The notes below the pieces were generated by a model. That model ran no database searches and was not told the DNA's origin. It was given only the letters and a program-made list of their open reading frames with translations. From contig OX595985.1 in the NCBI GenBank assembly GCA_951394045.1, positions 2,852,001-2,916,000 of the forward strand: a DNA stretch of 64,000 nt. Reading direction: 5' to 3'. Below, in pieces: positions 19,567 to 37,721 of the stretch (position 1 is its first letter; each line of letters starts with the position of its first letter). Made by a program: the position numbers and the translations under genes. The stretch comes from Nitzschia sp. DOCU1. Taxonomy: Eukaryota; Bacillariophyta; Bacillariophyceae; Bacillariales; Bacillariaceae.

Positions 19567-21218
19567 ATGCCTCCAAAGAAGAGACCTGCACTAGCAGGTA
19601 GACCGTTGGGCAAGTCGCCTAAACGGAGCAAGGAAACAGATAGTGTGGTAGCAAAGTCGCCGGGAAGGCCGAGGAGGACAAAAGTGGTGGAAAAGGTCGT
19701 GGAAACAGAGGCAGCAGAGGACGATGAAGATATTGAAGAAATAGTGGCTACCGTGGCTCCCGAGTACATTGTACCACCCGTGATTCTTCGCCCTTCGCAT
19801 AAGCTGTGGCAAAATAAAGCAGCTAGTATCATGACAAAGTATATTCAATTGGACAGCAAGCGTACAGTTGACAATTTGAAACGACAAGCAAAGAAGGGAA
19901 AAGCTGTTGGTGCTGGTGATGGGTCTGAGGTGCCGGGTACTGGAGGTGACGCAGTTGTCGGAGGAGTTGATGCGTCGGAGGTGGCGGGTACAGCAGTTGC
20001 AGAGGCCAACATTGGCGGAAAGGGTGATAAGGATGAAGAGGAGCCAAGGAAGAACAAGAAGGTGTTGAAGCTGGGAGTGATCACTGCCCCCTTGCAGATT
20101 CCAATGAAAAAGAAACCCCCATCTCATCATCAAACTTTTGAGAATATGGAGGAGCATGAAAAGTTAGCCTTGAGAGTGGATACTTTGCCGGTAATTTGTG
20201 GAAAATTGCCGGATCATCTCATTGGAATGTTGTTGCAGAGTATCAAGGATGATTTTCTGCTGGCAACTTTGCCTTTTTCACCGGTCATTGTCAGTCAGAA
20301 AGAAGAAGAGGAGAAAATGAAGAAAACCGCAGTCAATAGTCGAGGGACAGAGTTTACCAAAGCAGGAGAATATTATATGTTCGATACTACTGGGCCTGGA
20401 GGAGAGAGAAATAACAATATGCATTTGCCTACAGCTCTGGTACAGATTTTGGAGCATTTGGAGGTTTTGCTTGCTAGAGAGTTACAGCATTGGCTGAAGG
20501 AAGAAGAGCAACGAACCATTCGTTTTGGATTGGTGCGAACCATTTTTCCTCATCATCAAGAACTTCACGTAGATCTTTCATCATCTATTTATCAAGAGGT
20601 TGGGGATGATGAATATGAATTAGGTAAGTGCATGGCAGACTTGACCATTCCAAAGATCATTATTTGATTCTAATCATTTGTTTTTCAGTGACAAATAAAA
20701 GTGAACTAGGTTACATTTTACATGTGCCACTGGAGGAAGAGGGCATGGCTCTTCGCGTCTTGGAGGTCAAAGATGAGGAATTGGTGGAGGTTGTATATCA
20801 GATTGATCTTGGTGGTTTCATTTTGCTTCGTGGCGATGTCTTTCATTCTGGCCATTATGGTAAAGAAGACAATTTAAGACTGCACGGTATCTTGGAAGTT
20901 CCTGGAAAAACTTACAAGGGCTCGGACGAGCTTTATTTTCTGTCAAAGTTTGCAAAACAATCCTTCTATCCATGGGAGGGTTGGGATCACTCAAAGCTGG
21001 ATGCCGTGCTGGCAGGTAACATGATCGATCAAAGCGATACAAGGTTGTCAGACCGATTGAAGAAGATGATTGTGCAGAACACAGCAAAAAATGTGAGGAA
21101 GATGTTCCAGGGACCTAGCATGGTCAATGCATTGAGAATGAAACCAAAGAAAGTAGGTTTGACAGCCGATGAAACAGCCATTGTGAAAGAGGAAATCAAG
21201 AAGAGGTATGGCTTTTAG
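19567..21218 (+). CDS. AT-hook plus 2OG-Fe(II)-oxygenase-like protein; one intron
   Basis: Exons 19567-20623 and 20689-21218 are joined across a 65-base intron (gtaagt...ttttcag); 528 residues. The start M-P-P-K-K-R is followed by two basic Pro-Arg stretches, including SPGRPRRTK, an AT-hook that binds the minor groove of AT-rich DNA. Then comes a Lys/Gly-rich linker and a C-terminal double-stranded beta-helix-like domain. That domain has HHQELHVDLSSS (H-x-D iron ligands), GYILHVPLEEEGMALRVLE and FILLRGDVFHSGHYGKEDN followed by LRLHG, giving the second His and the 2-oxoglutarate-binding Arg with normal spacing. Such domains oxidise nucleobases, proteins or small molecules; with an AT-hook a nuclear target is plausible. 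It ends 66 bases before the leader of repeat array A, and its AT-rich codon use matches the Rep gene rather than the host genes. Confidence 0.62.
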
Positions 21219-21309
21219 GTGTATTCACATAGTTAGTTATTAGATTGACATGTTTAAGCAGTGCTAGCATAGTTGGGTCACCTATGTTAGATGCACAAAG
21301 GCTCTTACA

Positions 21310-22165
21310 GCAGCAAATGGTGAGGGCATTCACCAAGTCCATGTTTCGAGAGTTCATTGGGAGGTATTCACAACACCAAAAAGTGTATTGACAAAGGGAA
21401 AGGGGGTATTAACGCATGGTTGCATATTAACTGCTGGTTAATTGCTGATGTTTTATTCGGCTTCATAACACGGCGTATCGCGAGGGAATTTTCGTGTTAT
21501 TTCCCGCGTTGATGGTTTGGAGAATTCCTGGAATCGTATTCACAAAGGGAAATGGGGTATTAACGCGTGGTTTTATATTAACTGCTGGTTAATTACTGAT
21601 GTTTTATTCGGCTTCATAACACGGCGTATCGCGAGGGAATTTTCGTGTTATTTCCCGTGTTGATGGTTTGGAGAATTCCTGGAATCGTATTCACAAAGGG
21701 AAAGGGGGTAATAACGCGTGGTGTTATATTAACTGCTGGTTAATTACTGATGTTTTATTCGGCTTCATAACACGGCGTATCGCGAGGGAATTTTCGTGTT
21801 ATTTCCCGCGTTGATGGTTAGGAGAATTCCTGGAATCGTATTCACAAAGGGAAATGGGGTATTAACGCGTGGTTTTATATTAACTGCTGGTTAATTACTG
21901 ATGTTTTATTCGGCTTCATAACACGGCGTATCGCGAGGGAATTTTCGTGTTATTTCCCGCGTTGATGGTTTGGAGAATTCCTGGAATCGTATTCACAAAG
22001 GGAAATGGGGTATTAACGCGTGGTTTTATATTAACTGCTGGTTAATTACTGATGTTTTATTCGGCTTCATAACACGGCGTATCGCGAGGGAATTTTCGTG
22101 TTATTTCCCGCGTTGATGGTTTGGAGAATTCCTGGAATCGTATTTACATAGGGAAAAGGGGTATT
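21310..22165 (+). repeat. Iteron array A: leader plus five 151-base repeats
   Basis: The leader GAGGGCATTCACCAAGTCCA (from ~21322) precedes five copies marked by CGGCTTCATAACACGG at 21458, 21609, 21760, 21911 and 22062, exactly 151 bases apart. Each copy holds ATAACACG (for example 21465-21472) pairing with CGTGTTAT (21493-21500), and a CGCG(A)GGGAA block pairing with TTCCCGCG (21501-21508). Frames through the array are repeat artefacts. Confidence 0.95.
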
Positions 22166-22239
22166 AGCGATTCACTGTGCTTTAATGCGTTGGGCTCAAT
22201 CCTTTTGCCTTCCAGCGTTCTTCTCGTGGTTACACGTGG

Positions 22240-22600
22240 TAGCAAAGATGACGTTGTTAGATGACGTATCTTTGCTGGGTACCATTGTGTCAGGGTACAA
22301 GCACTCGTTGAGATAATACCTATTTATAAGTTTTTGGTCCAATGACATCATTTGATGACGTGGGAAATCGAGATGACATCATATGATGACGTATTTTATG
22401 GGTACCATTGTATTAGGGAAGGTCCTTTTGTTATTATAATACCTATTTGTAACCTTTGTGGTCTTTCTGTCTCCCGATTGCTGTGGAATGCTGACTTGTT
22501 GATGACATCATTTAATGACCATGATGACGTATTGATTTCCGATACCACCATTAAGATCATTCCTACGGACGTCATCGTAATTGGCGAGTGAGATGATAGT
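22240..22600 (+). promoter_or_regulatory. Cluster of TGACGT / TGACATCA motifs
   Basis: TGACGT occurs at about 22249, 22262, 22355, 22387 and 22525, with GACGTCAT at 22568 and several TGACATCA words interleaved. They sit in two to three diverged ~130-base units that also share GGGTACCATTGT and AATACCTATTT. In diatoms TGACGT elements are bound by bZIP factors and mediate CO2/cAMP responses. Here they lie 200-550 bases upstream of the coiled-coil gene at 22783. Regulatory function is inference. Confidence 0.55.
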
Positions 22601-22782
22601 AACAACCGTTGGTTTTCTACTTGATTTTACATGTGGAGGACAAACGTCGTGTTGTTCCTTATACAAATTGGGATTTTGGAGTGTATCCGAAGTTAAATGA
22701 CCCGGATTATTTCAGCAGTATGACCGAAAGATCAAGGAATGTGTTGAAACAGTCATTTTGAAGCAAGCAACGTAAATCTGTT

Positions 22783-23397
22783 ATGACTACTAGAATGAAT
22801 GATGGGGATGAGGATGAGCGAAAGCCGCCTGCTAGGGCAACATCACAGGGCAAGGAAGAATGTCAATTCAACCAGAAGCTCGTAGTTAAAACAAAAGGCG
22901 AGATCAAAGATACCAAAAGAAGCAACAGGGCCAAGAAGATACCAAATTTGGGGGTTGCGGACAAAGACGACGATGTTTTCGTTCAGAAATGGGAGCAATG
23001 GGATCGCAGAAGGGAAGAGAACAAGGTCATTAGAGACCAGGTTATGGAGATGGTGGAACGGAAGAGAGAAATTAAAAGGAAGGCAGATGAGGAGAAAAGG
23101 AAAGCAGATGAGGAGGACTGGTATAAGCTTTGGCACCCCCCCAAGCCCAGGTGGGGTCAGCCTTTGATGTTACTGCCCCCCGCAGCAGTGAGATGGCGTC
23201 ATTATCTACGCGACAAAGAAATAGACAGGCTACGTAGTTTGAATCCTCCAGTTCAAGTGGAAGAAGATTTACAGGAGGGGGAAGATGAGCAAGATAGGAA
23301 AGGTTCTACATCTGGAGACGATGACGACGACGACCACGATGACGAGGACGACCACGTTGACGACGCTGATACTACAAAGAAGGATAATAGTTTTTAG
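22783..23397 (+). CDS. Charged coiled-coil protein of unknown function (element cargo)
   Basis: 204 residues from ATG at 22783. The N-terminal third is Lys-rich and hydrophilic, the middle a highly charged helix (residues ~75-118, repeated K-A-D-E-E-x-R-K units) ending in DWYKLWHPPKPRWG. A Trp/Pro-containing segment (ALRW-like, PPAAVRWRHYLRDKEIDRL) follows, and the tail is a long Asp/His-rich acidic run (DDDDDDHDDEDD). The composition, basic-helical then acidic, is reminiscent of histone chaperones or other chromatin proteins, and the neighbour on the opposite strand is a histone H3. That functional link is inference; no domain is recognised. Located between arrays A and B. Confidence 0.55.
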   Translation: MTTRMNDGDEDERKPPARATSQGKEECQFNQKLVVKTKGEIKDTKRSNRAKKIPNLGVADKDDDVFVQKWEQWDRRREENKVIRDQVMEMVERKREIKRKADEEKRKADEEDWYKLWHPPKPRWGQPLMLLPPAAVRWRHYLRDKEIDRLRSLNPPVQVEEDLQEGEDEQDRKGSTSGDDDDDDHDDEDDHVDDADTTKKDNSF

Positions 23398-23549
23398 TTG
23401 TCATACAATAATCTCTACATATGGAAATATTATCTATGTCAATTCTATAGTGCTCATAGATCAATATAAATTAGATCTACTTTCTTTCTTAGAGATCTTG
23501 TATATTGCATTCATGAATGCATGAGTAAAGTCAACACCTAGTTGTGCGT

Positions 23550-23945
23550 TCAATATCGTTCTCCTCGAATACGACATGCAAGCCGAATGTCTTTCACCAT
23601 GACGGTGATTCGCTTGGCATGAAGGGCGCACAAATTGGCATTTTCAAACATTTCAACAATGTAAGCTTCGGCTGCATGTTGCATTGCAAGAATTGCCAGA
23701 GCTTGCAAACGAATCGGTTTACCAATCAATTGTTCTGCGACTTCTTTAACCAAACGCTGGAAGTTAGATTTGGGTATCAAAAGCTCAGTGGACCGTTGGT
23801 ATTGACGGATTTCACGAAGTGCTATTATGCCTGGTCTAAATCTACGACGTCGGTGCAAAGAGTCCATGCCAGGAGGAAGCTGCCTTGAAAACGCTCTACC
23901 AGAAGAAGAAATGTGTTTCATAGGGATCTGTTTGATCCGAGCCAT
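23550..23945 (-). CDS. Divergent histone H3 variant (CenH3-like features)
   Basis: 131 residues. The histone fold is unmistakable: [20 protein letters not shown], then [42 protein letters not shown], and the end RIRGERY (canonical RIRGERA). The N-terminus A-R-I-K-Q keeps the Lys4 and Lys9 positions, but Lys14, Lys18 and the whole Lys27-Lys36 region are replaced by a shorter, Arg-rich linker ([10 protein letters not shown]). Loop 1 between helices alpha1 and alpha2 (GKPIRLQ) is one residue longer than in canonical H3, and alpha2 has A-L-A-I-L-A-M-Q, closer to CENP-A than to S-A-V-M-A-L-Q. The gene has no intron and lies convergent with the coiled-coil gene, 152 bases from its stop, between two arrays. 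It could be the host centromeric H3, a replacement variant, or captured cargo. Confidence 0.88.
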
Positions 23946-24094
23946 GATGATATCAGCTGTCTGTAAGTGGAGACAGATTGATGCCCATTTGTCAATTAAA
24001 AAAGGCTTTGTCCATTGGAAGTCAACACAGAATAGCAGAAAAGTATTTACGATGATTGATATTTACAAAGCCAACAAAGGTATTGAAGCTTGGT

Positions 24095-25560
24095 TACCTG
24101 TTTATTAACGCCTGGTTTTATATTAACTGCCGGTCAATTACTGATGTTTCGACGAAGCCTCTTTGGCTTCATAACACGGCGTAATTTCCGTGTTATTTCC
24201 CGCGTTGATGGTTTGGAGAATTCCCGGAATCGTATTCACAAAGGGAAAAGGGGTATTGACAAATGGTTTTATATTAACTGCTGGTTAATTACTTATGTTT
24301 TATTCGGCTTCATAACACGGCGTATCGCGAGAGAATTTTCGTGTTATTTCCCGCGTTGATGGTTTGGAGAATCCCTGGAATCGTATTCACAAAGGGAAAA
24401 GGGGTATTGACATATGGTTTTATATTAATTGCTGGTTAATTACTGATGTTTTATTCGGCTTCATAACACGGCGTATCGCGAGAGAATTTTCGTGTTATTT
24501 CCCGCGTTGATGGTTTGGAGAATTCCTGGAATCGTATTCACAAAGGGAAAAGGGGTATTGACACATGGTTGGAGACAAACTGCTGGTTAATTACTGATGT
24601 TTTATTTGGCTTCATAACACGGCGTATCGCGAGGGAATTTTCGTGTTATTTCCCGTGTTGATGGTTTGGAGAATTCCTGGAATCGTATTCACAAAGGGAA
24701 AGGGGGTAATAACGCGTGGTGTTATATTAACTGCTGGTCAATTACGGATGTTTTATTCGGCTTCATAACACGGCGTATCACGAGAGAATTTTCGTGTTAT
24801 TTCCCGCGTTGATGGTTTGGAGAATTCCTGGAATCGTATTCACAAAGGGAAATGGGGTATTAACGCGTGGTTTTATATTAACTGCTGGTTAATTACTGAT
24901 GTTTTATTCGGCTTCATAACACGGCGTATCGCGAGGGAATTTTCGTGTTCGCGAGGGAATTTTCGTGTTATTTCCCGCGTTGATGGTTTGGAGAATTCCT
25001 GGAATCGTATTTACATAGGGAAGAGGGGTATTAACGTTTGGTTTTATATTAACTGCTGGTCAATTACGGATGTTTTATTCGGCTTCATAACACGGCGTAT
25101 CGCGAGGGAATTTTCGTGTTATTTCCCGCGTTGATGGTTTGGAGAATTCCTGGAATCGTATTTACATAGGGAAAAGGGGTAGTAACGCTTGGTTTTATAC
25201 TAACCATCAGTCAATTACTGATATTTCGACGACGGTCTTTTTCACTCATTCGGCTTCATGACACGGCGTATCGCAGAGGAAGTCTCATGTTATTTCCCGC
25301 GTTGATGGTTTGGGGAATTGGTGGAATCGTATTTACTAAGGGAAATAGGGAATTAACGCATGGTTTGGTTCCAACTTACAAAGGGAAAGAGGGTATTAAC
25401 ACGTGCTTTTACACTAACTACCGGTCAATTACTGATGTTTGGGGGACGGTCTTTTTTGCACGGCATATCGCTGGGGGATTCTCATGTTATTTCCCGCGTT
25501 GATGCTTTGGGGGTTCGTATTTACAAAGGGAAGTAGGGTATTGACGCGTGGTTCCATCTC
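24095..25560 (+). repeat. Iteron array B: about nine 151-base-type repeats
   Basis: Copies of the array-A unit with TCGGCTTCATAACACGG (or TTGGCTTC) near 24164, 24305, 24456, 24608, 24758, 24909, 25080 and 25251, then increasingly degenerate copies to ~25560. One copy contains a 20-base duplication of GCGAGGGAATTTTCGTGTTC (24931-24970). The array begins 150 bases upstream of the H3 start and ends ~320 bases before the Rep-helicase start. Frames within it are repeat artefacts. Confidence 0.93.
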
Positions 25561-25876
25561 AATAGTGTGTTAGTTTGTTGATATATGGTAACAATGCGTT
25601 GTTCCCTTTGAATATGGTGGATTACCAGGAGATTTACATTTGTTTAGAATACATTTTTATATCTGTAATTGGATACAGTTGAATGAGGGATGGTTTGTTT
25701 GTAACGTCTTTTGCATTCTCATGTAATACGTTTGACTTCGTGGCAATAGTGTGATTTTCCCTGACCTATTTTCAAATCTCATTTTAAAACTTTCAAATTC
25801 TAGCTGGAAGGAGCTACCAGATTTCAGATTAATTGTTGCAATATTCTATCTTTAGTGGCAGAGACCAAAGGAAAGG

Positions 25877-28800
25877 ATGGAGTACATTGACTGGGAAGCC
25901 ACTTGTGATGATGATGATGATGATGATGATGATGACAATGAAGATGATGATGATGATGACAGTGAAGATTTTTACGGGTCAGAGGTGGAACACCAGATAC
26001 CAAATGAAACTGTACTTTATACTGCTTCTGTTGGAGATCAAGACACGAGACATGCTCATAGTGACACATTGAGTTGCATGTTATGCAAAAGGTCAACAGT
26101 GATAGTCGGGAATTCTTTTTTCCAAGTATATTTGGAGACACATAATCGAGAACAGATGTCTATGAGGAGGAAATGGTGCTACTTAGGTGCTGACGTTGTG
26201 GGGTCACAATTTGATCTTTGTCAAGTTTGTTGGCAATACCTGAACAAAGACAACAGAAAGTATGCCTTATGGAAAACTTCATGGGCCCCATACATGTACT
26301 ACATGCTGAAGAATCTCTCCTCAGCTTCTAGAAGGAAATTGTGGATACTTTTGCCAAGGGAATGGCAAATGCAATGGCATCTGATTTTTCGCCTAGATGT
26401 TGGAAGTGTTTGTAGAGAAATCACGAAGCAGAAAATGGAAGCAGCTGGCAAATTACAGAACACAAATCCGAGGCAAGCCCTTGGCCCAATGTCAGAACAA
26501 GTTTTTGATAATCCAGTTGTTTTGTGTCCATGGGGATGCACGGAGTATGTGCATAAAGTGGGGAGAATTGATATCCATGCTATTTTCCAAAGGCAGTTGA
26601 AAACTGAGGAAGTGATTCCCTTTGCAGCCAGTCGGTATCAAAGAGCATTATATTCAAGGATGGACTACTGTCGGGCCAGTGTGGAAGAGTACAATGCTTG
26701 GCTTATGAATAATGAGTGGAAGTGTCTACCAGCCATTGCTTTATTCTCCGATGGACCATATTTTTGCACCTGCCAGCATCACAATAATGGCACTTCCAAG
26801 ATCTACTTCCATGCACCCAGATCATTTGTTCCTTCTCTTCCTTCTCCTATATCTGATCAGTTGAGTTTTGGTATCTTAAAATCCCGGGTACTCAATGCAA
26901 TGAGAAGAGGCCGTTTTAATACCGTTTACCCCACATTAGAACTGAAAGCACGTTATGGAGGTATTGACAGTTGTTCTGTTGGGGTTGTAGGAGACTTCAG
27001 CAGGAAGTCTGCATTGAATTTGCGAAATGCTGCAGTATCTGTGGCAGGGAGGCCTGATCTGAAAGCATATCTCGACTATTTGAGTGCCACTGGACGGATT
27101 GATGTATCATCAGCTAAAGCCATTGCAGAGGTTGCAGGAAATTTGGATGAAACCGTGTTAGATACATCAGGTTCCACCTACATGACACTGCATGACAGTC
27201 TCAAACTCCAACAAAGCCACACTATCTCGAAAAGTTTTACTTTTAGAGGTAATGATTGCCAGCCTCAGTGGCCAGTGAAAAGGACCTTCGTTCATGACAG
27301 CCAGTGTAGGTATGGTGGGACAATAGGTATTTTACCACAGCTGAAAGATGAAAATTCCCAAGTTGACAAAAAGATCCTATGGATTATGCTGGGAGTTATA
27401 GTCTTGGTTCCATCTGTGTGGGAGAATCTGGCAGAATCAATTTCTGATGATAGCTGGAAGGTTCAGCTGCTGTTATATTGCACCAGGCATTGTCTACCTT
27501 TTCCGTTTAGGAGTTCCCCAGCTAAGTTGAAATTGAAGATTGCCAGTGTCGACAAATTGACTATGAGTCTGGCAGGACAACAAGGCAGCCTCCAGTATGT
27601 TTATCACGAGGGTGATTTGTTCACTAGGTTGGGCCATCTACCTGGTGTTCAGGTGTCCTACATACAAGACATATTAGGGACTATATCTGGTGTTGATCCA
27701 AACATCAACACCATTGTGTATATGTGTGAAGAAGGGGTCTCTACAATGCCTGTTTTCACAATGGAAGACAGCCGGGAAAAATGGCACTTGGTTTGCATCC
27801 TGGAAACTAATGATTATCAGTTAAGGTTTTCAGACATATTCTATTACAGGCATCAAGGGTTTGATGGCTGGTGGAAACAATCACGAGAGGCAATGTTGCC
27901 CTTGTGTTGTGAACAGACTCTATCAACAGAGGTGAACTTATCTCAAGTGAAACTTCTGATCTACACCAGGGAGTTGACACAAGTCCGTCAACAATGTCTA
28001 CGAGAATATTTGTCATATGTGGGCTGTAAAGCAAACATTCGGTGTGCTCACCATAACATGCCCCTTACTGTCTTGCCGAAGTTGAAAGGGATTCCAAATT
28101 ACGTTCATTGCTATCAAGCAGTGGAAAACTCCAATGAAGAATGGTGTGGAAGAGCAGTTACATACCGATGTCCAACCAAAAATTGTTCTAGCTGGTTGTG
28201 TCAACAATGTTACAAAAAAGTGGACAACAACAAAGAACTGTTGGTTCAGCCTAGTGAAGTTGATTTTGAAATTGATCACAGGTACTATACTTCAGTATAC
28301 AACGAAGATGCTACAGAACCTCTCCAGCGGGACATTTCACAGGAACTGACCCAACTTCAAGATACAACAAATGTCAATGTCCCCCAAGTTCTTCAAGAGA
28401 GTGGAACTTTAAATGCTTGGTCTATTCCTACCAATGATGCTGGTAACCATCCTCATGAATCCATTGAATCAATCAACAGAAGGAAAGGATTCTCTGACCC
28501 TTTACGAGTGCCAGGACATGTTATCTTCAATCAATGTGGAACATTGTTGATAAGAGAGGGATCCGTGTTACACGGCAACCGCATATCCAACTCCATCATT
28601 CAAGAAATTGCATCCACTGTTCCTGGGCATTCTATCCCCACACTGTATTTGGAAGGCATGTTGTTCCCGTCTATTTTCTGGAAATGCTTGGATTCTGGGT
28701 CAGTAGTTGGGGCTATTCCTTCACCATTACTAGCTCAACAATCTGATGTCACAAGACAGGGGTTTGCTTCATTGGAAGACCATTCTAATTGCAGAGTGAC

Positions 28801-31800
28801 TTCTGTTGATTGTCTTAGTGGAACTGACATTCGATACAAGTGTTTTCTTTTTGACCTATTGGCCAATGTCCACCTGAATGGCAAGGATTCAAGGAAAATC
28901 ATGAATAGGGGTTTCCAAAGCAACTACAATCACTGTCCTAACAGTCGATTTTTGCAAGCAGCTATCAATTCCAAAAAGATTGTCAGGGAACTTACTGCAT
29001 CAGAAAAAGAAGAAGAAAGTACAATTTTTTTGTCAGTAACTTGCAATCAATCCAAACACCCCGGGGTGTCAATTTTACGTCACCACATCAACCATATTGA
29101 CCTGCATGGTTGCCAAGAGACGTTGAAAAAATTTGATATCAATGTGTTTGGAGGCTGCAGTTTGGCTGAGTACAGAAGCCAGCTTGATAGTGGTGCTGCA
29201 GGGCTTCTCTTACGAAATTGGTTGGAGAAAGCTATACAATTCCTTACCTACTTGGAATCCAACTCATCAAATTTCTTTGGGAGTGTTCTTCGGGTATTTG
29301 CAAGATTTGAATACCAAGATGGTGAGGGGAATTTACCTCACTTGCATATGTTGATTTGTACCAGAGAGAAACCAATGACACAAGAAGGCAGGGCTACACT
29401 TGAAGCAATGGTCTCTGGGTGTGTTGGTAACATTGTTCAAGATTGGGAAATTCCTGAGTTTATAGCCCGTGGTTTGCTTCAAGATGCTAACGAATACTAT
29501 GAGGTGAAAGAAAGTGGAGGGATTGTTTTGAATCATTTTTGTTCAGAAAGGTGCCTGAAATGGGTTGGACCTGGCTCAAATGATTACATCTGCAAAGTTG
29601 TCAACAACCATTTGGCTAATTGCAACCCAGCCACCCATACGTACGAGGTGGTTAACATGGCCTGGCACCCTGAGGTAGAAGAAATCTACAAAAGACTGCA
29701 GCTGATTGACGTTAATGGGAAGCCAAATGATCTTCTTCTCTGTATTAGGCATTTCCCAGCCTCCTTGTCTTCTGCAGCCAAATTTTCTCCATGTCACAAG
29801 ATCTTGTTCATCGTTTTCCAAGGCAACCAGAACATCCAGATAGTCTTCAAGTATCAGAACAAGACTTGTCTCACCAAGTACGTGACCAAGCTTGAAGAAA
29901 CCAATAAAGTGTTTTTGGTTGCATTGAATGGTGAAAGTACAAAATTTGGTCTTGAGATGGATTTCATTGCAAGATGTGATCAGAAAAAACATGAATCCAA
30001 AAAAGTCTATGGTACCAGTCGTACTTACATGGAAATTGAACATACGTTACTGGGCTATGCGATGTCTCGAAATACCGCTACCTACATTCATATCTCAACC
30101 AAACCTTTAGAAGAAAGACCTGGGATAAAAGTCAAACAACAGATCAAGACAGTGAACCAACAAAGGAGGAGGAATGGGTTACCAGAAGCTACCAACCCAT
30201 CGGACTTGGCAAGCAGTGACTTACCCTGTGGCGATACAAGAAACGGATACCCAGCATGGAGACAGTTTACCCCCAAGCAAACAATCATGGTGAAGGATCT
30301 GTATTTCAACCCGATATCTACAGATAAAGTTACCTTATTCTCCTTGAGACCTCCAGAGGTGAGAATTATAGTAAAGCAATTGGAAAAGTATTTTCAATGG
30401 TTTCATATTGGGGACATTGTGGAATCTTGTTGGATTGCCGAACATTTATCTTCCAATTTAAGGAAATCATGTTGGATTGATGCATGCGGACATCTGGTAC
30501 AGATAAGAGAAGAAGCTATCCCAGAACTGAAGACACATGTTCAAACAGTTTCCCAGGATCCCTTTTATGCTAGCCAAGAAGGATTTTCTACTATGTGCAG
30601 GTGGATTGAAAAGATCTGTCATTTGTTCCAGACACATGGTCAGGAAACAGGAGAAAGCAATGAAGAATGGGACTTTGTTTGTACTCAGATCATATGTCGA
30701 AATGGACCTGAGAGATTGTTACCCACGATAGTGTTTCCCGAGGTCTTTCCAACCAATCGCACAAAGTTCATGCTTCATTTGCTGTTGTCTTTGGGTCATT
30801 TTGATACAGAACTTGATTTGTTGGGTTGCAGTTACAGGTCTGTTTGTGCAAATGTCAATCTGATTCCTGCAACAAATATTTCTAGTTCCCAGGCCGTGGA
30901 TGGTATTTTGAAGAAGTATCTCACAGAACAGCTTTTGCACTACCCAATAAATTCGGAAAGAGTTGGCAAAGTCACCTTGGAGGCACATAACCTTTTGAAC
31001 AGTGCCTTGATGGAAAATTCATCAGAGATTATTGAGTCTACGGCTCTTATTCCTCCTTGTATCTACACAAAACTTCAAGATAGCAGAAAGGAAAGATTTG
31101 CAGCTTTCATGCTACAAACCAAAACAAACATGGCTAGAGCAATCAAGAATGAACTGAAAGATCTCTGTCCAAGTCCGGAACAGCTGGTTGCTAGCACAGT
31201 TTCTGAGAATTGTCCCTTTCCTCACGACTTACCAGCTACTGCCACACAAACTTCTCAAAGCTACGAAGAGCACAGAAAATATGCCAAGATCCTAAGAGAA
31301 ACTGTGGATGCTTATGCAACACCCAGCCATTTCAGACCTAAGTCAACACTTTTGAATGGTCCTCCTGGAGTGGGTAAAACGTTTCTCAGCATGTATGGTG
31401 CAGGTTATGCAATGTCCATTGGGTTGTTTGTACTGTCTACAGCTTTACTCTCTGCAAGAGCCGCAGAACTTGGTGGGATTCACCTTCATCAATTATTTTG
31501 CATTAAGCCTGGAGTTTCCAATCCAGATGATATCTGCGAACAAGCTGTAAGAACCTTGATGCATTACCCTGAACTGGTATGGTTGATTACCCATGCTGAT
31601 GTCTTGGTATTAGATGAAATTGGACAGAACTCGGCTCAGTTTTTTTCTGGGGTGGAAATGATATCCAGAACTGTCAGACAGAGATCAGATTTTATGGGGG
31701 GGTTACTGGTACTTGCTACGTACGATGAAAGCCAGTTGAAACCCATCGAAGGATTACCTTTCCTGACAAGTCCACATGTTATATCTTCTTTCCGACTATT

Positions 31801-33040
31801 GTCATTAGAACATTGTGTCAGGGCAGAAGAAGAAACTCTCAGGATGGCTTGCACTATTGTTCGGAAACCTTCTACTATGTTTATGCAACATCCAGAGCTG
31901 GTAGAGCAATTCCTGGGTCTTATTAAAGACAATGCAACGTTTGCTCCATCATGGGACTCTACTATCATCCCTCACAATACTGTTCGTGTCTTTGGGAAGA
32001 AACAACCAGCAAAGAGAGAAAGACAAAGATTCATGTCCGATATGGTTAACAGATTGGAAAGGACTGGCACTGACTACATCTTACATAAAGCTACGGATCA
32101 GCAGATTCCAAGACAATCTCATGGAAAATGGGTTCCAGCTACAGAGACTGTAAGCCGGAGATTGGACCAAATCTGCAGGGAACCAGACACCCTACACTTT
32201 TTTGAAGGTGCTGTGTTCGAATGTTCTGAAAATACCAAAGAGGCAGCAGTCAGTTACACTCAACTTCTCCTGTTGGTTCAATTACCCACTCAGGACCAAT
32301 TGAATCAGAAGCAACCAATCACTTTCTTATGTGCTCCCCACGGCACTAAGGTTGTACCAGATGTTCCAATACCGGAACTGCTACTCTTCGGATGGCAGTG
32401 GGTTAGGATAGGTATGAATTCTTCCCGGCCATTGAAAATTCCTGGAACTCAATTGAGGGGCAGAAGATCTCAATATCGACTCAGACCAAGAACGACAGCA
32501 ACCATTCATCAGATTATGGGTAGCACACTTGGAACAGTTGCTTGTCAAATCAGTTCAACGCAGAGTGAGTTTGCTCTTTGGGAGAAAGGGCAGTTAGTGG
32601 TTCTCATATCAAGAACAAGCAAATTCCGTAACTTGATATTTGTTGGGGACAAGAAAAACATCCTGGACTCAATTTCATCCATCTTAGTTCGACGTTCCCT
32701 TTTTGATGAATACATTTGCCATGTGCTGGAGGTACTGAGAGGTAACGAGACTGGACAATTCCAGCCACTACAGATGTCAACCTTCCCTTTTCGAATTTGC
32801 GATACCTTGCAACACCAGAATGATTCAGGAGCATGCTATTTGCTTTGTAGTGTCAGATCTCCACAAACGACATACATTGGGCAGACAAGCAGAAGTATTG
32901 CTACAAGACTTTCGGAACACAACAGGGGCATTGGAGCTGTTCAAACTGCACCGCATCATTTGCGACCATGGACTCCTGTGGCTTATGTTTGTGGGTTCCC
33001 GAAAGATCTTTCTTCTCTTTTAAATTTTAAGTTTCAATGA
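25877..33040 (+). CDS. Helitron-type Rep-Pif1 helicase with C-terminal GIY-YIG-like domain
   Basis: 2387 residues, one exon. Residues 10-35 are an Asp run encoded by GAT repeats. Two Cys-x2-Cys pairs near residues 67-120 and a Cys-rich block near 770-785 (CPTKNCSSWLCQQCYKK) suggest zinc binding. The Rep nuclease shows FARFEYQDGEGNLPHLHMLI with the HUH motif H-L-H at ~1155, and KYVTK with the candidate catalytic Tyr at ~1334. The helicase has Walker A NGPPGVGKT (~1827), Walker B VLVLDEIGQ (~1910), LATYDESQLKPIEG, HQIMGSTLG and LVVLISRTSKFRNL, all of Pif1 type. Residues ~2315-2360 contain CYLLCS...TTYIGQTSRSIATRLSEHNRG, which matches GIY-YIG nuclease (Y-x-x, Y-I-G, catalytic Arg, H-N). It should nick, unwind and mobilise the element by rolling-circle replication. 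Helitrons with a fused AP-type endonuclease are known; this fusion I do not recall. The GIY-YIG part is short and lacks an obvious downstream metal-binding Glu. Confidence 0.88.
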   Translation: MEYIDWEATCDDDDDDDDDDNEDDDDDDSEDFYGSEVEHQIPNETVLYTASVGDQDTRHAHSDTLSCMLCKRSTVIVGNSFFQVYLETHNREQMSMRRKWCYLGADVVGSQFDLCQVCWQYLNKDNRKYALWKTSWAPYMYYMLKNLSSASRRKLWILLPREWQMQWHLIFRLDVGSVCREITKQKMEAAGKLQNTNPRQALGPMSEQVFDNPVVLCPWGCTEYVHKVGRIDIHAIFQRQLKTEEVIPFAASRYQRALYSRMDYCRASVEEYNAWLMNNEWKCLPAIALFSDGPYFCTCQHHNNGTSKIYFHAPRSFVPSLPSPISDQLSFGILKSRVLNAMRRGRFNTVYPTLELKARYGGIDSCSVGVVGDFSRKSALNLRNAAVSVAGRPDLKAYLDYLSATGRIDVSSAKAIAEVAGNLDETVLDTSGSTYMTLHDSLKLQQSHTISKSFTFRGNDCQPQWPVKRTFVHDSQCRYGGTIGILPQLKDENSQVDKKILWIMLGVIVLVPSVWENLAESISDDSWKVQLLLYCTRHCLPFPFRSSPAKLKLKIASVDKLTMSLAGQQGSLQYVYHEGDLFTRLGHLPGVQVSYIQDILGTISGVDPNINTIVYMCEEGVSTMPVFTMEDSREKWHLVCILETNDYQLRFSDIFYYRHQGFDGWWKQSREAMLPLCCEQTLSTEVNLSQVKLLIYTRELTQVRQQCLREYLSYVGCKANIRCAHHNMPLTVLPKLKGIPNYVHCYQAVENSNEEWCGRAVTYRCPTKNCSSWLCQQCYKKVDNNKELLVQPSEVDFEIDHRYYTSVYNEDATEPLQRDISQELTQLQDTTNVNVPQVLQESGTLNAWSIPTNDAGNHPHESIESINRRKGFSDPLRVPGHVIFNQCGTLLIREGSVLHGNRISNSIIQEIASTVPGHSIPTLYLEGMLFPSIFWKCLDSGSVVGAIPSPLLAQQSDVTRQGFASLEDHSNCRVTSVDCLSGTDIRYKCFLFDLLANVHLNGKDSRKIMNRGFQSNYNHCPNSRFLQAAINSKKIVRELTASEKEEESTIFLSVTCNQSKHPGVSILRHHINHIDLHGCQETLKKFDINVFGGCSLAEYRSQLDSGAAGLLLRNWLEKAIQFLTYLESNSSNFFGSVLRVFARFEYQDGEGNLPHLHMLICTREKPMTQEGRATLEAMVSGCVGNIVQDWEIPEFIARGLLQDANEYYEVKESGGIVLNHFCSERCLKWVGPGSNDYICKVVNNHLANCNPATHTYEVVNMAWHPEVEEIYKRLQLIDVNGKPNDLLLCIRHFPASLSSAAKFSPCHKILFIVFQGNQNIQIVFKYQNKTCLTKYVTKLEETNKVFLVALNGESTKFGLEMDFIARCDQKKHESKKVYGTSRTYMEIEHTLLGYAMSRNTATYIHISTKPLEERPGIKVKQQIKTVNQQRRRNGLPEATNPSDLASSDLPCGDTRNGYPAWRQFTPKQTIMVKDLYFNPISTDKVTLFSLRPPEVRIIVKQLEKYFQWFHIGDIVESCWIAEHLSSNLRKSCWIDACGHLVQIREEAIPELKTHVQTVSQDPFYASQEGFSTMCRWIEKICHLFQTHGQETGESNEEWDFVCTQIICRNGPERLLPTIVFPEVFPTNRTKFMLHLLLSLGHFDTELDLLGCSYRSVCANVNLIPATNISSSQAVDGILKKYLTEQLLHYPINSERVGKVTLEAHNLLNSALMENSSEIIESTALIPPCIYTKLQDSRKERFAAFMLQTKTNMARAIKNELKDLCPSPEQLVASTVSENCPFPHDLPATATQTSQSYEEHRKYAKILRETVDAYATPSHFRPKSTLLNGPPGVGKTFLSMYGAGYAMSIGLFVLSTALLSARAAELGGIHLHQLFCIKPGVSNPDDICEQAVRTLMHYPELVWLITHADVLVLDEIGQNSAQFFSGVEMISRTVRQRSDFMGGLLVLATYDESQLKPIEGLPFLTSPHVISSFRLLSLEHCVRAEEETLRMACTIVRKPSTMFMQHPELVEQFLGLIKDNATFAPSWDSTIIPHNTVRVFGKKQPAKRERQRFMSDMVNRLERTGTDYILHKATDQQIPRQSHGKWVPATETVSRRLDQICREPDTLHFFEGAVFECSENTKEAAVSYTQLLLLVQLPTQDQLNQKQPITFLCAPHGTKVVPDVPIPELLLFGWQWVRIGMNSSRPLKIPGTQLRGRRSQYRLRPRTTATIHQIMGSTLGTVACQISSTQSEFALWEKGQLVVLISRTSKFRNLIFVGDKKNILDSISSILVRRSLFDEYICHVLEVLRGNETGQFQPLQMSTFPFRICDTLQHQNDSGACYLLCSVRSPQTTYIGQTSRSIATRLSEHNRGIGAVQTAPHHLRPWTPVAYVCGFPKDLSSLLNFKFQ

Positions 33041-33204
33041 GAACAAGCCAGAAATCACCGAATAACTATGGGCATTGACTATACAGTACTGGACATTGCA
33101 AACCTTGCTTTCCCAATAATTACAGAACGAGATGACTTCCAACACATGGGTCTAAGGTTGGTGATAATGGTAAAAAATGCTTAAAGATTGAGAGTGCTGT
33201 ACAT

Positions 33205-34090
33205 TTGATGAGGGCGTTCACCATGTCCATGTTTTCAAAGTTCATTAGGCTGTATTTACAACACCCAAAACCTTATTAGCTAATGGTTTTGTAAGAAAAT
33301 GGGGTATTGACTCATGGTTGGAGACGAACTGCTGGTTAATTACTGATGTTTTATTCGGCTTCATAACACGGTGTATCTCGAGGGAATTTTCGTGTTATTT
33401 CCCGCGTTGATGGTTTTGAGAAATTTTGGAATCGTATTTACAAAGGGAAATGGGGTAGTGACGCATGGTTGGGTACAAACTGCTGGTTAATTACTGATGT
33501 TTTATTCGGCTTCATAACACGGCGTATCGCGGGGGAATTTTCGTGTTATTTCCCGCGTTGATGGTTTCGAGAACTGGTGGAATCATATTTACAAAGGGAA
33601 ATGGGGTATTGACTCATGGTTGGAGACAAACTGCTGGTTAATTACTGATGTTTTATTCGGCTTCATAACACGGCGTATCGCGCGGGAATTTTCGTGTTAT
33701 TTCCCGCGTTGATGGTTTGGAGAACTCGTGGAATCGTATTTCCAACGGGAAATGGGGTATTGGCGCGTGGTTTCATATAAACTGTTGGTTAATCACTGAT
33801 TTTTTATTCGGCTTCATAACACGGCGTATCGCGCGGGAATTTTCGTGTTATTTCCCGCGTTGATGGTTTGGAGAACTCGTGGAATCGTATTTCCAACGGG
33901 AAATGGGGTATTGGCGCGTGGTTTCATATAAACTGTTGGTTAATCACTGATTTTTTATTCGGCTTCATAACACGGCGTATCGCGAGGGAACTTTCGTGTT
34001 ATTTCCCACGTTGATGCTTTGGACAATTGGTGGAATCGTATTTACAAGGGAAAATCGGGTATTGAAGCATCAGTTTATACTAACTGTTGG
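33205..34090 (+). repeat. Iteron array C: leader plus five 151-base-type repeats
   Basis: Starts ~165 bases after the Rep-helicase stop with GAGGGCGTTCACCATGTCCA, almost the same leader as array A. CGGCTTCATAACACGG follows at about 33356, 33507, 33658, 33809 and 33960. In the third and fourth copies the second stem is perfect: CGCGGGAA (33681-33688) pairs with TTCCCGCG (33701-33708). Confidence 0.93.
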
Positions 34091-34140
34091 TCAATTCTTT
34101 TTTATCACATTTTATTTTCTTACTTCACTGAGGTACATAG

Positions 34141-35232
34141 TTAGTTGGTGCTCAGATTAATAGCTTCTTCACTTGCTTGAAAAAGGGAAAGATCAGCTGG
34201 GTTCACTGGGTAGACGGAAATTGGATGGTATTGTACCATTTCAGACATGTTAGTACCTTCAGCATCTCCAGTTCCATCTTTGACCTCGCTCAGTCTATAC
34301 CACCCAACAACACCCCATCCACTCCTGTCGTTGATGAAATTTACCATGTCATTAAAGCCATCCCGAATTGAACGTATGTTTACTCTGATATCTCTAGGTT
34401 TGATTGCTGCCACCATGGTACCATTTCTGAATGGCATCTGTGTGAAATCCCAAGAACAGAAATCAGCCCTGATTACACCACCACTAGCTGGCAAAGTCAG
34501 AGTGACTCTGATAACACACGAGCCCCCAACAGCTGACTGCGAATAGCAACCACAACGGTCTGCAGATGGCTTTTGCCGGTCACAGAATGTCCCTCCGCAA
34601 CAGTTCTCTATTACTGCTGCCCGGCTGACTCCAAGAGCTTGTGTTTGGATGAAAAAAGATTGATGATGATTGACAGACCGGGGGGGATCGAACTCAAACG
34701 TTAAAGCAGGACGGTTAATCGGAATGAGAGGCCATACTGTATCGATCTTCTGTACGTTTCCCTTGCAAGTATGGGTGATTGGATCTGGCTCACATAGGGC
34801 AAACCAATCTCCGACCTTTAGCTCCGACCGAAATGAAAGGCAATCTTGCCACAATAACTTCTCGCTTACTCCGCTGCTGTTGCTTTCAAACACAGCACAA
34901 CAGAGATTTGGGCAGGTTGGATCTGCAAAAGTCAACATACGCTGATAATTAACTGCAGCTTTGTTCCTCTTGGTGTAATTTCCTACACCTGGTCGCACAG
35001 AGATAGCCATATCTGGTCTTGATTGGCCATGCTTCACGGATAACAGCACCAGACATAACATCTTTTCGGAGGAGGCACCAATGTCGTTACTATACAACAA
35101 GTCCTCCAAACTCACATGGGTAAATTGAGACAGAGCATCACCATTACGTGTAGGGTACTTTGCCTGAGGAATGAAGATTCCATTATTGTCCAGCACTAAG
35201 GCTCTTCGACAATTTGGTTGCTGATGGGCCAT
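34141..35232 (-). CDS. Cys-rich protein, possibly OB-fold; element cargo
   Basis: 363 residues from the ATG at 35232 (a GTG lies just before it). The middle contains a Cys cluster at residues ~205-235: ENCCGGTFCDRQKPSADRCG then CYSQSAVGGSC, likely a structural zinc site. Before it, LCCAVFES...LKVGDWFALCEPDP is reminiscent of the beta-strand pattern of OB folds such as RPA subunits. Some Helitrons carry RPA-like single-strand DNA-binding proteins, so this role is attractive, but the resemblance is weak. No signal peptide or membrane segment. The gene faces the Rep-helicase gene and is separated from it by array C. Function unassigned. Confidence 0.6.
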   Translation of the reverse strand: MAHQQPNCRRALVLDNNGIFIPQAKYPTRNGDALSQFTHVSLEDLLYSNDIGASSEKMLCLVLLSVKHGQSRPDMAISVRPGVGNYTKRNKAAVNYQRMLTFADPTCPNLCCAVFESNSSGVSEKLLWQDCLSFRSELKVGDWFALCEPDPITHTCKGNVQKIDTVWPLIPINRPALTFEFDPPRSVNHHQSFFIQTQALGVSRAAVIENCCGGTFCDRQKPSADRCGCYSQSAVGGSCVIRVTLTLPASGGVIRADFCSWDFTQMPFRNGTMVAAIKPRDIRVNIRSIRDGFNDMVNFINDRSGWGVVGWYRLSEVKDGTGDAEGTNMSEMVQYHPISVYPVNPADLSLFQASEEAINLSTN

Positions 35233-35617
35233 CACTTAACAATTTCCTTGAAAAATGAAACTAAGGTCTCAAACCAACTCTGTTTCAGCGAGGTTACCAT
35301 TGTATTTCCCCCCCCCCTCTAGTAGGGTTATTTACAAGATTAGTATCCATATAATATTGTCCATGCTTGTATGTATTTTAAACTCAATCTACATATTGGG
35401 TAGGGATTATGTACCCTTTACATAAAAACTTCATGGGTACAAATGAAAAAATACCTGTTTGCGATAAATAACGGATATGATTGGCGTATGATTGGCGATC
35501 TACTCTAGCTAGCTAGTAACATTCTACAACTACTAGTACTAGCTCTTGGCGAGGTTTGCAAATGTACATTTCCTAACAGCCAGATACGAGGGGACAGAGG
35601 GAGTCACTATAAAGAGA

Positions 35618-36433
35618 ATGGTTCAAAGATCTTCTTCAAAACTACCGTTCTCTCCATTAACAATCATCATGACATCCGTAACCCACCGCAGCATCTCCCA
35701 TGCCCAAACAGCTAGCAGAATTGTGGAACAGTCTCCACAACCTACTAAGAAGCCAAAGTATGCCATAGCTACTGACCACCTTGTGCCAGAGAATCTGATG
35801 TACAATCAGACCAGCATCTATATGATGCCCCTAAGAGGAGGTCTGGACATCATCTATTTTGAAAATGCAAACGCTGAAGGTTTTGTTCAACCCTTGGTGA
35901 GCATTCTATTCAAAAATCCTGACAATATGGAAGATAAGGTAAAGCAAAACGACTTGCGAAAGATTACCAACATCGTCTATGTCATTCCGAAACGACTCGC
36001 CCCAAGAGTGAACGAGCCCAAGTGGAAGATAAAGACGCCTAACGAGAAGTACAAAGAACACTACTTTGTTCGTGTTTGCCCTCCAGAAGATAATACCCCC
36101 CAATCCCGCCACAATTGTTTGGAAGCCCTTGCCCAATTTCTCAACGAGCATCAAATACAAGAAGATATGAAGAAAGGACGGCAAGGATCAAAAGCCCAAT
36201 ACAAAGTTGCACCTGATCAACCTGATTACACAATGGACGATGAGAGGAAAGAACCATGGAATCATCGTTTCGTTGACAGTGATGTTGGCAGGCTCATGGC
36301 TAAGTTGATCAGGCCAATGCCAACAACCACTTTTTTCCATGAAGCTGACCAACGCTTTACCCAAACATTCTTTGCTGAACCCTACCCGTCTTATGCTCAG
36401 GAGAATTTTGGTTATGTCAACACTAACTGGTGA
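35618..36433 (+). CDS. Orphan protein, element cargo
   Basis: 271 residues from ATG at 35618 (MVQRSSSK); the frame is open further upstream to 35546 but without an ATG. No recognised domain. Visible features: a hydrophilic Ser/Thr-rich start, LIPxx-type strand regions (LRKITNIVYVIPKRLAP, YFVRVCPPED), a basic helix (NEHQIQEDMKKGRQGSK) and an aromatic C-terminus (TFFAEPYPSYAQENFGYVNTNW). The promoter region is divergent with the Cys-rich gene (385 bases apart) and includes a C-run at ~35308 and an AT-rich stretch. The mixed alpha/beta composition and intact length suggest a functional gene, unlike the decayed frames nearby. Confidence 0.55.
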   Translation: MVQRSSSKLPFSPLTIIMTSVTHRSISHAQTASRIVEQSPQPTKKPKYAIATDHLVPENLMYNQTSIYMMPLRGGLDIIYFENANAEGFVQPLVSILFKNPDNMEDKVKQNDLRKITNIVYVIPKRLAPRVNEPKWKIKTPNEKYKEHYFVRVCPPEDNTPQSRHNCLEALAQFLNEHQIQEDMKKGRQGSKAQYKVAPDQPDYTMDDERKEPWNHRFVDSDVGRLMAKLIRPMPTTTFFHEADQRFTQTFFAEPYPSYAQENFGYVNTNW

Positions 36434-36605
36434 GAACTAGTAATGCCTGGGCACTTCTACATAGTAACATTCTTCTATCTTGGTCAGATTTTGCCTAGCT
36501 GCTGGCACTGCCTGCAGGAGGCTTTGCCGAACTGTCAGGCAGTGCCTCCTATTTATAAACTCTGTACTCCAACACTCCACATCTCATCATGATTTTGTTG
36601 CATAT

Positions 36606-37721
36606 CTACAAGTGGATAGGTCTAGAAAAACTTTCCATAAGCTCATGGACCTTCCTTCGTTGTTGTGTGTCGTTGTGAATGGGTAATAAGGATGCATGTC
36701 CACCTTCGAACTTCTCCAGAAACTTGTTCTCCAACTCTACTTCCATAGCTTTTGATTTTGGAGTATAGCCAAAGTGACATAGTTCCTCCTGGGTAGAAAT
36801 AACCCCCTTTATGCACAAATTCCTGCTTCTTGTCTCTGGTAGCCAACTCAAACAGACATTTGCAGTGTAAATAAAGATCTCCCCCGTTCTCACAACCACC
36901 TGTTTAGTTGTGGGTTTACCACCTTTTGAATTCCAGACTTGGGCGAACTGTAAACTCCTATTCCCTTCCAGTGGAAAATAAAAGAACAAAGGAAAGCTTT
37001 CCAACGAGTTCTTTCCATTCTTCAGATCTTCTAACATAGTAGGAGAGATGCTGTAGCTAGGAACATACTCCGAATGAGATTCTTGATTAGGGTCAGCTGA
37101 AAACTCCAATCTGACTTTCATGAACTTCATCTCTGGAAAAAGCTCAGAAACAAGGCACTTTAAAAAGAACTCGCATCGATGCAGGCTTTTGACACTTTGG
37201 CCTTCCTCATGGTTTGCAAGTTTAGTGGAATAAAGAGGGATGCAAAACATTTCTCCCATGGTTCCTGGTATCTCATCCAACTGCATCTTGATGATAGGAT
37301 GCCAAACCAAACTCCAATCTAGAGTAACCTTACCAGAGAAGTCGATTCCTAACGGCAACTCCTCGACACTGCTCCTTCCGAGCTGCAAAAGGAGCCTGGC
37401 AAGAATTCTCTCTGATTCCCTTCCAAAAAGATAGTCAAACAATTCCGAGGAAAAACAGCTCCTTCCCAAGAAACTTTTCTTACTGTATAACGTGTTCTTA
37501 AACGCTTCACCTCGAAAAATATTCGTTATATACAAAGCTGCATCCATCAAGATATTCTTGCCCAGCCCAAGTTCTTCCTCATCAAGACGGACCAGGGGTT
37601 TCCAAAATACCTTAGCTCCGACAAACATCTGAAACGTCACTCTTTCTTTCTCTATCTTAGCCAGCTTTTTGGAACAAACTGCCTGTTTCTTCTTCCATTT
37701 ATCTCTGAATGTGCTGACCAT
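36606..37721 (-). CDS. Orphan protein, element cargo
   Basis: 371 residues from ATG at 37721. N-terminus is a basic helix (FRDKWKKKQAVCSKKLAKIEKERVTF), the rest mixed with no membrane segment. Landmarks are VLRLDEEELGLGKNI-type acidic turn at ~45, FGRESERILARLLLQLGRS at ~115, WSLVWHPIIKMQLDEIPG at ~145 and FPLFFYFPLEGNRSLQF at ~255. I recognise no family. The codon usage is AT-biased like the Rep-helicase gene. It converges with the 35618 gene (173 bases between stops) and is divergent from the 38144 gene. Confidence 0.58.
   Translation of the reverse strand: MVSTFRDKWKKKQAVCSKKLAKIEKERVTFQMFVGAKVFWKPLVRLDEEELGLGKNILMDAALYITNIFRGEAFKNTLYSKKSFLGRSCFSSELFDYLFGRESERILARLLLQLGRSSVEELPLGIDFSGKVTLDWSLVWHPIIKMQLDEIPGTMGEMFCIPLYSTKLANHEEGQSVKSLHRCEFFLKCLVSELFPEMKFMKVRLEFSADPNQESHSEYVPSYSISPTMLEDLKNGKNSLESFPLFFYFPLEGNRSLQFAQVWNSKGGKPTTKQVVVRTGEIFIYTANVCLSWLPETRSRNLCIKGVISTQEELCHFGYTPKSKAMEVELENKFLEKFEGGHASLLPIHNDTQQRRKVHELMESFSRPIHL

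Follow-up and report, generated by a model that had tools for sequence, protein, structure and literature searches.

A stretch of 64,000 nucleotides of the diatom Nitzschia sp. DOCU1 (contig OX595985.1 of assembly GCA_951394045.1, positions 2,852,001 to 2,916,000; hereafter the window, with coordinates counted from its first letter) holds a single open frame of 2387 codons in the standard code. In its product we saw the motifs of an HUH Rep and of a Pif1-type helicase, followed by a GIY-YIG nuclease domain. We consider it likely, though by no means certain, that the window contains a decayed rolling-circle transposon of the Helitron/Helentron type, 22–25 kb long; its transposase would consist of a Cys-rich N-terminus, HUH Rep, Pif1 helicase and Slx1-type GIY-YIG nuclease, and would act by the mechanism proposed below.

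The order of parts, as seen in alignments of 14 and of 21 sequences, is N-terminal Cys pairs, a second Cys cluster, Rep motifs I–III, Pif1-type helicase and GIY-YIG. The window protein has the Cys pairs C67/C70 and C115/C118, the H-L-H of the HUH motif at residues 1155–1157, and the Pif1 motifs GPPGVGKT, DE and ATIH..MGST...VVLISRT; most of these residues are invariant in four aligned homologs. By Pfam, PIF1 was matched at residues 1820–1957 (expectation value E 1.4e-5; 25.2 bits, just below the cut-off of 25.9) and GIY-YIG at residues 2319–2376 (E 1.1e-4; 22.9 bits, just above the cut-off of 22.6), the latter match covering positions 3–57 of the 78 in the profile. Frame reading, alignment and Pfam thus bear out a preliminary description of this DNA, which had listed the Cys pairs, the H-L-H, the Pif1 motifs and a GIY-YIG core in one frame of 2387 residues. 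The Tyr motif that it gave as Y-x-x-x-K was off by one; the sequence reads Y-V-T-K at residues 1335–1338 and belongs to a motif with two tyrosines that has decayed here.

In the aligned family, Rep motif I reads F..T..[ST]-C-N with variants, motif II E-[FY]-Q...H-x-H and motif III Y-L-x-K/S-Y, while the proteins end in Y-x-L/I...Y-I-G...R-L..H-N...F-E-x-x-W. We presume that motifs I–III are those of a Helitron Rep; this resemblance is tied to the Pfam Helitron model through P0010, a protein from another collection. HUH motifs I–III and a Pif1-type helicase are joined in one protein, as in RepHel proteins, with the first Tyr missing from the window copy. In another full-length frame, at C12:1984543-1991541 (L014), the HUH motif is HIN instead of HIH, the second His being replaced by Asn.

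Taken alone, the nuclease domain of the window barely exceeds its Pfam cut-off, as could be the case if a RepHel gene had been fused, by chance or misassembly, to a GIY-YIG gene next to it, e.g. that of a Penelope element. The recurrence of the fusion rules this out for practical purposes: it is present in many copies in the genome and in 15 of the 23 proteins found by a search with P0010 (P0010 included). A profile search gave 24 GIY-YIG places in the genome; the match in the window is the weakest of these and, as others reach 5e-13, is not due to chance. By coordinates, 18 of the 24 overlap a match to the window protein, for which at least 31 matches were found in the genome when the best 20 of 44 candidates were scored; the window itself is among the 31, and some matches are pieces of one and the same copy. 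Stop-free frames of 2406–2569 amino acids were present in at least 8 of 19 regions examined, some other regions being too short to hold one.

P0010 is above all Pfam cut-offs (Helitron_like_N 1.1e-7, PIF1 8.6e-12, GIY-YIG 1.4e-9), and aligns to the window protein (P0001) from residue 656 on with 24% identity over 1759 columns (E 3e-134). All 15 GIY-YIG proteins from the P0010 search also have PIF1, 9 of them Helitron_like_N as well; a profile search of protein collections yielded 12 proteins, with GIY-YIG annotated in 5. The family profile found zero relatives in IMG/VR and among GTDB species, so that neither collection points to viruses or prokaryotes as a home. One relative across a small part only, P0015, comes from a source that names the diatom Cylindrotheca closterium. 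The first 60 residues of P0010 include, near the protein start, GGVEPNPGP, a candidate 2A-like motif.

A tree was built from 36 sequences with P0037 as the root. All but the outgroups P0037 and P0038, both without GIY-YIG, formed one group of 34 with support 1.0, which splits into two main subgroups. With two outgroups only, this tree is a weak test of the clade’s position among Helitrons. The whole signature YIG...R...HN...FE..W was matched by the strict pattern in 19 of the 36 sequences and partially in 6; among the 11 with none, P0017–P0020 and P0036 carry a Pfam GIY-YIG match, P0028 carries a weak one (0.0015), three (P0027, P0030 and P0031) have none listed, and two are the outgroups. Recurrence, a single clade and purifying selection (see below) speak for the Helitron-type Rep–Pif1–GIY-YIG fusion suggested in the preliminary description: judged from the sequences, the fusion is supported as real, recurrent in other copies and data sets, and selectively maintained.

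By profile and by predicted fold, the nearest solved relatives of the C-terminal domain are Slx1 branched-DNA nucleases. In a PDB search with the profile of four homologs, SLX1 chains ranked first (1.8e-10); behind them came helicases of Pif1 type and that of Helraiser (1.2e-6). For the last 133 residues of the window protein, the structure model has a mean predicted local distance difference test score (pLDDT) of 65, with blocks over residues 61–120 at 71–89. The comparison with GIY-YIG structures that had been suggested came out in favor of the domain: the 11 best Foldseek matches of this model were all Slx1 or its plant homolog HIGLE (probability 0.98–1.00; E from 3.4e-3 to 0.1; 31–40% identity over 64–72 columns). 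Profile match and fold both place the domain in the GIY-YIG superfamily.

Six codon comparisons were made for this domain. The ratio of nonsynonymous to synonymous substitution rates (dN/dS) was 0.06 in the sole unsaturated pair, whose dS of 2.45 is also close to saturation; the five remaining pairs had saturated synonymous sites and a proportion of nonsynonymous differences (pN) of 0.15–0.26. The low ratio, together with low pN at a saturated synonymous proportion (pS), indicates that the domain is maintained, i.e. is under purifying selection.

The window copy itself is probably inactive. A Cys takes the place of the first Tyr in Rep motif III (C-L-T-K-Y versus Y-L-x-K/S-Y in relatives); as to the catalytic residues of GIY-YIG, the Arg is kept, the Glu is replaced by Lys and the frame is stopped, with the end reading F-K-F-Q-stop versus F-E-x-x-W in relatives. 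The 47 codons past the stop look, by eye and unscored, like the ends of the relatives P0002 and P0003. A nonsense codon would thus have cut off a longer C-terminus, directly followed by its same-frame remnant, and the longer 3′ exon considered earlier is not required. The earlier thought that a second nuclease gives the element two independent ways to cut DNA may hold for intact relatives; for the window copy, with the catalytic Glu missing, it probably fails. One could still argue from the open state of the 2387-codon frame that it is a transposon-derived host gene kept for a cellular role. We regard this as very improbable: catalytic residues and the C-terminus are lost, the frame sits between probable element ends along with tandem arrays, and related elements look recently mobile.

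As far as sequence comparison can tell, the RepHel-GIY protein is part of a mobile element of 22–25 kb. Two copies of one subfamily, C11 (C11:235291-260393; 25.1 kb including the left tetranucleotide) and C1, are identical at 99.960% over 19,975 bases and at 99.918% over 4,906 bases, and have unrelated flanks. We found the 300-base left end at 37 places in the genome and the right end at 7; in this subfamily (A), the left end may be shared by other subfamilies, truncated copies or non-autonomous derivatives. All 15 left junctions read, out of the 37, have the form CTNG|ATA (N being C in 11, T in 3 and G in 1), with no visible sequence pattern ahead of CTNG. Six right ends were read out of the 7, with CTTG in five and CTCG in one. 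The two tetranucleotides are unequal in C11 (CTCG/CTTG) and in C1 (CTGG/CTTG); as these copies are nearly identical yet differ on the left, the left tetranucleotide is taken to be the host’s and the right one the element’s.

The joined flanks of C11 align along their full 300 bases with C8:147445-147744 at 91%, making this place a paralogous empty site. It reads CCTCCGCTCG|TCTCATCTG; at the C11 insertion, the left side has CCTCCGCTCG|ATAATGG and the right side GCTACTTG|TCTCATCTG. At this one empty site, the insertion sits directly after the host CTCG, the element seemingly ends in CTTG, and no target duplication is evident.

That the two ends and the target share one form of nick site fits the prediction for an HUH rolling-circle enzyme. 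In the mechanism that we propose, Rep would nick after CTYG at the 5′ end (CTYG^ATA), the Pif1 helicase would peel the strand off, and Rep would cut again past the terminal CTTG, with the strand joined after a target CTNG. Cutting by Rep at CTYG and strand displacement by the helicase are suggested by the family and by the junctions. The GIY-YIG domain, in the position held in Helentrons by an apurinic/apyrimidinic (AP)-type endonuclease, could then cut branched or flapped junctions left by single-strand transfer, like cellular Slx1.

Alternatively, the GIY-YIG domain and not Rep might nick the target and set the CTNG preference, in the manner of the site-specific homing nucleases among GIY-YIG enzymes. 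The AP endonuclease of Helentrons was also proposed to guide target choice (PMC4067079). This alternative seems to us unlikely, because CTTG is found at the element’s own 3′ edge as well, and one HUH enzyme recognizing both places would be a simple explanation. Slx1, to which the nearest solved relatives of the domain belong, is specific for structure rather than for sequence.

Several observations weigh against the reading of a rolling-circle transposon with a junction-cutting nuclease. The AlphaFold2 model of the Rep region has a pLDDT of 34, too low to use; the Pfam Helitron model matches none of the RepHel-GIY frames of this genome even at E 10 (classical Helitrons are separate in the genome, with 29 PF14214 places, 26 of them above the cut-off). 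No Foldseek match of the C-terminal model was seen at E ≤ 0.001, and the role of GIY-YIG in junction resolution is drawn by analogy. DNA folding predicted weak 3′ hairpins only; a single empty site was found, the joined flanks of C1 giving no spanning one (its right flank is itself repetitive). No GIY-YIG is listed in the clade members P0027, P0030 and P0031, of which P0027 and P0030 are short and may be incomplete. Finally, among five elements with both ends read, left and right tetranucleotides are equal in three (CTTG/CTTG twice and CTCG/CTCG once).

Equality of the tetranucleotides favors a 4-base CTYG target duplication; the element would then have the ends ATA...GCTA, the right CTTG would be the host’s, and simple rolling-circle joining would not fit. 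We find this quite unlikely, since the young, near-identical C11 and C1 differ on the left with CTTG on the right of both, and since the empty site has CTCG where the right side of C11 has CTTG. Proteins with no GIY-YIG listed, as well as the ruined domain of the window copy, might also mean that this domain is a DNA-binding or targeting appendage that takes no part in cutting. Such a role appears improbable to a similar degree, as the whole signature is kept in over half of the aligned proteins (strict pattern, above) and purifying selection is strong. We keep the rolling-circle transposon with a cutting GIY-YIG domain as the preferred reading; features of the window are collected in Table 1.

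Table 1. Features of the window (positions in window coordinates)
Feature	Position	Strand	Basis or remark
CTGG, host target tetranucleotide at left junction, inferred	18624..18627	+	aligned to CTCG of element A; sole CTNG starting within 18591-18660
Whole element, ~22.5 kb	18628..41175	+	left end placed by alignment; right end at either CTCG 41172-41175 or CTTG 41193-41196 (uncertain)
Predicted 5′-terminal hairpin	18633..18667	+	DNA folding, without shuffle control
151-bp tandem repeat array 1	21385..22166	+	
Divergent histone H3, 131 aa	23550..23945	-	Pfam Histone 5.5e-34; PDB histone H3 4.8e-36
151-bp tandem repeat array 2	24183..25204	+	
RepHel-GIY-YIG protein frame	25877..33040	+	2387 aa open frame
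N-terminal Cys pairs C67xxC70 ... C115xxC118	26075..26230	+	invariant in four aligned homologs; aligned in 14-sequence set
Rep motif I (TIFLSVTCNQ...)	29021..29074	+	alignment
HUH motif H-L-H (Rep motif II)	29339..29347	+	alignments
Rep motif III, C-L-T-K-Y, without the first Tyr of Y-L-x-K/S-Y in relatives	29867..29881	+	alignments
Walker A, Pif1-type helicase	31358..31381	+	Pfam and alignment
Walker B D-E	31613..31618	+	alignment
C-terminal helicase motifs (TIHQIMGST ... VVLISRT)	32501..32617	+	alignment
GIY-YIG domain, Pfam stretch	32831..33004	+	Pfam; structure model and PDB match
Family catalytic Glu to K, then stop TGA at conserved Trp	33029..33040	+	alignments; DNA
Same-frame C-terminus remnant after stop	33041..33184	+	reads EQARNHRITMGIDYTVLDIANLAFPIITERDDFQHMGLRLVIMVKNA; 47 codons
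151-bp tandem repeat array 3	33297..34096	+	
Accessory open reading frame (ORF) 1, 364 aa; counterpart in element A in opposite orientation	34141..35235	-	tblastn E 2e-18; 28% identity
Accessory ORF 2, 271 aa; counterpart in element A	35618..36433	+	tblastn E 8e-11; 20% identity
194-bp tandem repeat array, core in common with 151-bp unit	39832..40324	+	
Poly-C tract close to right end	41122..41141	+	counterpart directly before right end of element A

The left end of the window element aligns to that of a related element, element A, with a score of 59, the best of 200 shuffles being 52; the GC content is ~0.42 within the window element and ~0.49 outside. When folded, the left ends of the window element and of element A gave hairpins after 5 and 9 unpaired bases. 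In a minus-strand comparison of element A with itself, the matches listed were all internal and none joined the two ends. A core unit is common to the 151-bp and 194-bp arrays (window 21.2-25.5, 33.2-34.1 and 39.8-40.7 kb).

Neither accessory ORF matched a Pfam family (ORF 1 at E 0.1). RPA was considered for accessory ORFs: one looked OB-like by eye, without Pfam support, and no RPA was found among the accessory ORFs scanned. Element A also carries a RING-finger gene (L012:244-681) and a TPR gene (L039:5531-6067); the window ORFs scanned had no Pfam match to either. The neighboring gene at 17534-18559 encodes a DUF6824 protein (Pfam), a family that we take to be typical of diatoms.

As in Helentrons, the RepHel protein is single, large and ends in a nuclease; tandem repeats lie inside the elements, and palindromes are predicted close to the 5′ end. 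By Pfam, an OTU domain is present in the relatives P0021 (above cut-off) and P0016, whereas none was seen in the window protein. No target duplication is reported for Helentrons, and none is evident at the one empty site here, although the equal tetranucleotides of three elements would also fit a 4-base one. For Helentrons, the OTU domain is reported in PMC4067079, and tandem, satellite-like repeats inside oyster Helentrons in PMC7492417. The C-terminal nuclease here is, however, of Slx1-type GIY-YIG and not AP; no AP endonuclease was found by Pfam in the members scanned (no Exo_endo_phos in P0001, P0002, P0004, P0006–P0008, P0010, P0017, P0021 and P0036), and the outgroup P0038 has a weak Exo_endo_phos match, 0.0058, below cut-off. 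The target is CTNG in contrast to the T-rich/TT target of Helentrons, and the size reaches 25 kb.

HUH Rep and Pif1-type helicase are shared with canonical Helitrons (Helraiser and those of plants), and the Helraiser helicase was matched as said above. The CTTG end resembles the CTAG-3′ of Helraiser; PMC4778049 mentions ends in CTTG-3′ in maize Helitrons and in truncations of Helraiser. Canonical Helitrons insert between A and T, begin with 5′-TC and end in CTRR-3′ with a 3′ hairpin. The elements, in contrast, have CTNG|ATA on the left and CTTG on the right, neither the A/T insertion site nor 5′-TC, and 3′ hairpins that are predicted to be weak; their Rep lies, in this genome, beyond the reach of the Pfam Helitron model, and a GIY-YIG domain is added.

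The two-Tyr HUH motif of the family is also that of IS91-type elements, and these similarly insert after a fixed tetranucleotide, CTTG or GTTC; they are bacterial, ~1.8 kb long and without helicase or GIY-YIG domain. Passages of PMC3214074 and PMC2918590 did not confirm this target, as CTTG occurs in primers only; the two-Tyr HUH enzyme and absence of direct repeats are described in PMC5714925. Slx1 and HIGLE, which the C-terminal domain matches best in the PDB by profile and fold, differ in setting: cellular Slx1 is a subunit with Slx4 as its partner, whereas the present domain forms the C-terminal end of a transposase. Penelope-like elements are also mobile elements with a GIY-YIG nuclease (PMC6431247); they are retroelements with reverse transcriptase and no RepHel protein.

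The fusion element thus looks like a variant of the Helitron/Helentron-like kind, and a RepHel with GIY-YIG appears to be new. As the preliminary description had supposed, we recognized no description or catalogued case of one in the open literature (Repbase and most subscription journals were outside the search).

A second feature of the window element is its histone H3 gene. The genome has 28 H3-like places, including the window’s, presumed host genes and fragments; 6 of the 28 have an internal stop. For seventeen of them (2 with an internal stop), rolling-circle coding sequence is no more than 15 kb away, that of RepHel-GIY for 11 and that of classical Helitrons for 6, versus 0.9 expected, as 3.2% of the genome is that near; the binomial probability of 6e-19 exaggerates the significance because the copies are related. 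The window’s H3 gene lies inside the inferred element ends, while most others were placed in or beside elements by proximity; element A has no H3 gene by tblastn at 1e-2. The position of H3 relative to the RepHel gene varies between subfamilies, which suggests repeated capture. In a case apart from the GIY-YIG elements, the distance between the Rep domain match and an H3 gene is constant, 1509-1522 bp, in six classical Helitrons.

Four H3 tails, three in or beside RepHel-GIY copies and one beside a classical Helitron, are without the ARKS motifs that surround K9 and K27 in ordinary H3. Of these four, the two beside RepHel-GIY frames other than the window’s (one gene partial) and the classical-Helitron one, of which the first 33 residues were read, start with ARTK or ARIK. 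Between the window’s H3 and two other RepHel-GIY H3 genes pN is 0.37 and pS 0.79-0.85. One could speculate, with much doubt, that rolling-circle transposons carry their own replacement H3, captured more than once, which would package new copies in chromatin that the host cannot silence. Nothing on point about H3 in transposons was among the literature matches listed.

To our knowledge, it is not settled how eukaryotic rolling-circle transposons finish integration, or for what reason a second nuclease is retained in Helentrons. As a related clade has another nuclease, of Slx1 type, at this position, a second cut would seem to be truly needed and to have been provided for twice. With a preference for a 4-nt target, defined ends and nearly identical copies, the elements described here offer a testable system. 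If confirmed, the repeated occurrence in one genome of H3 genes close to rolling-circle elements of two kinds would point to a new kind of conflict between transposons and chromatin.

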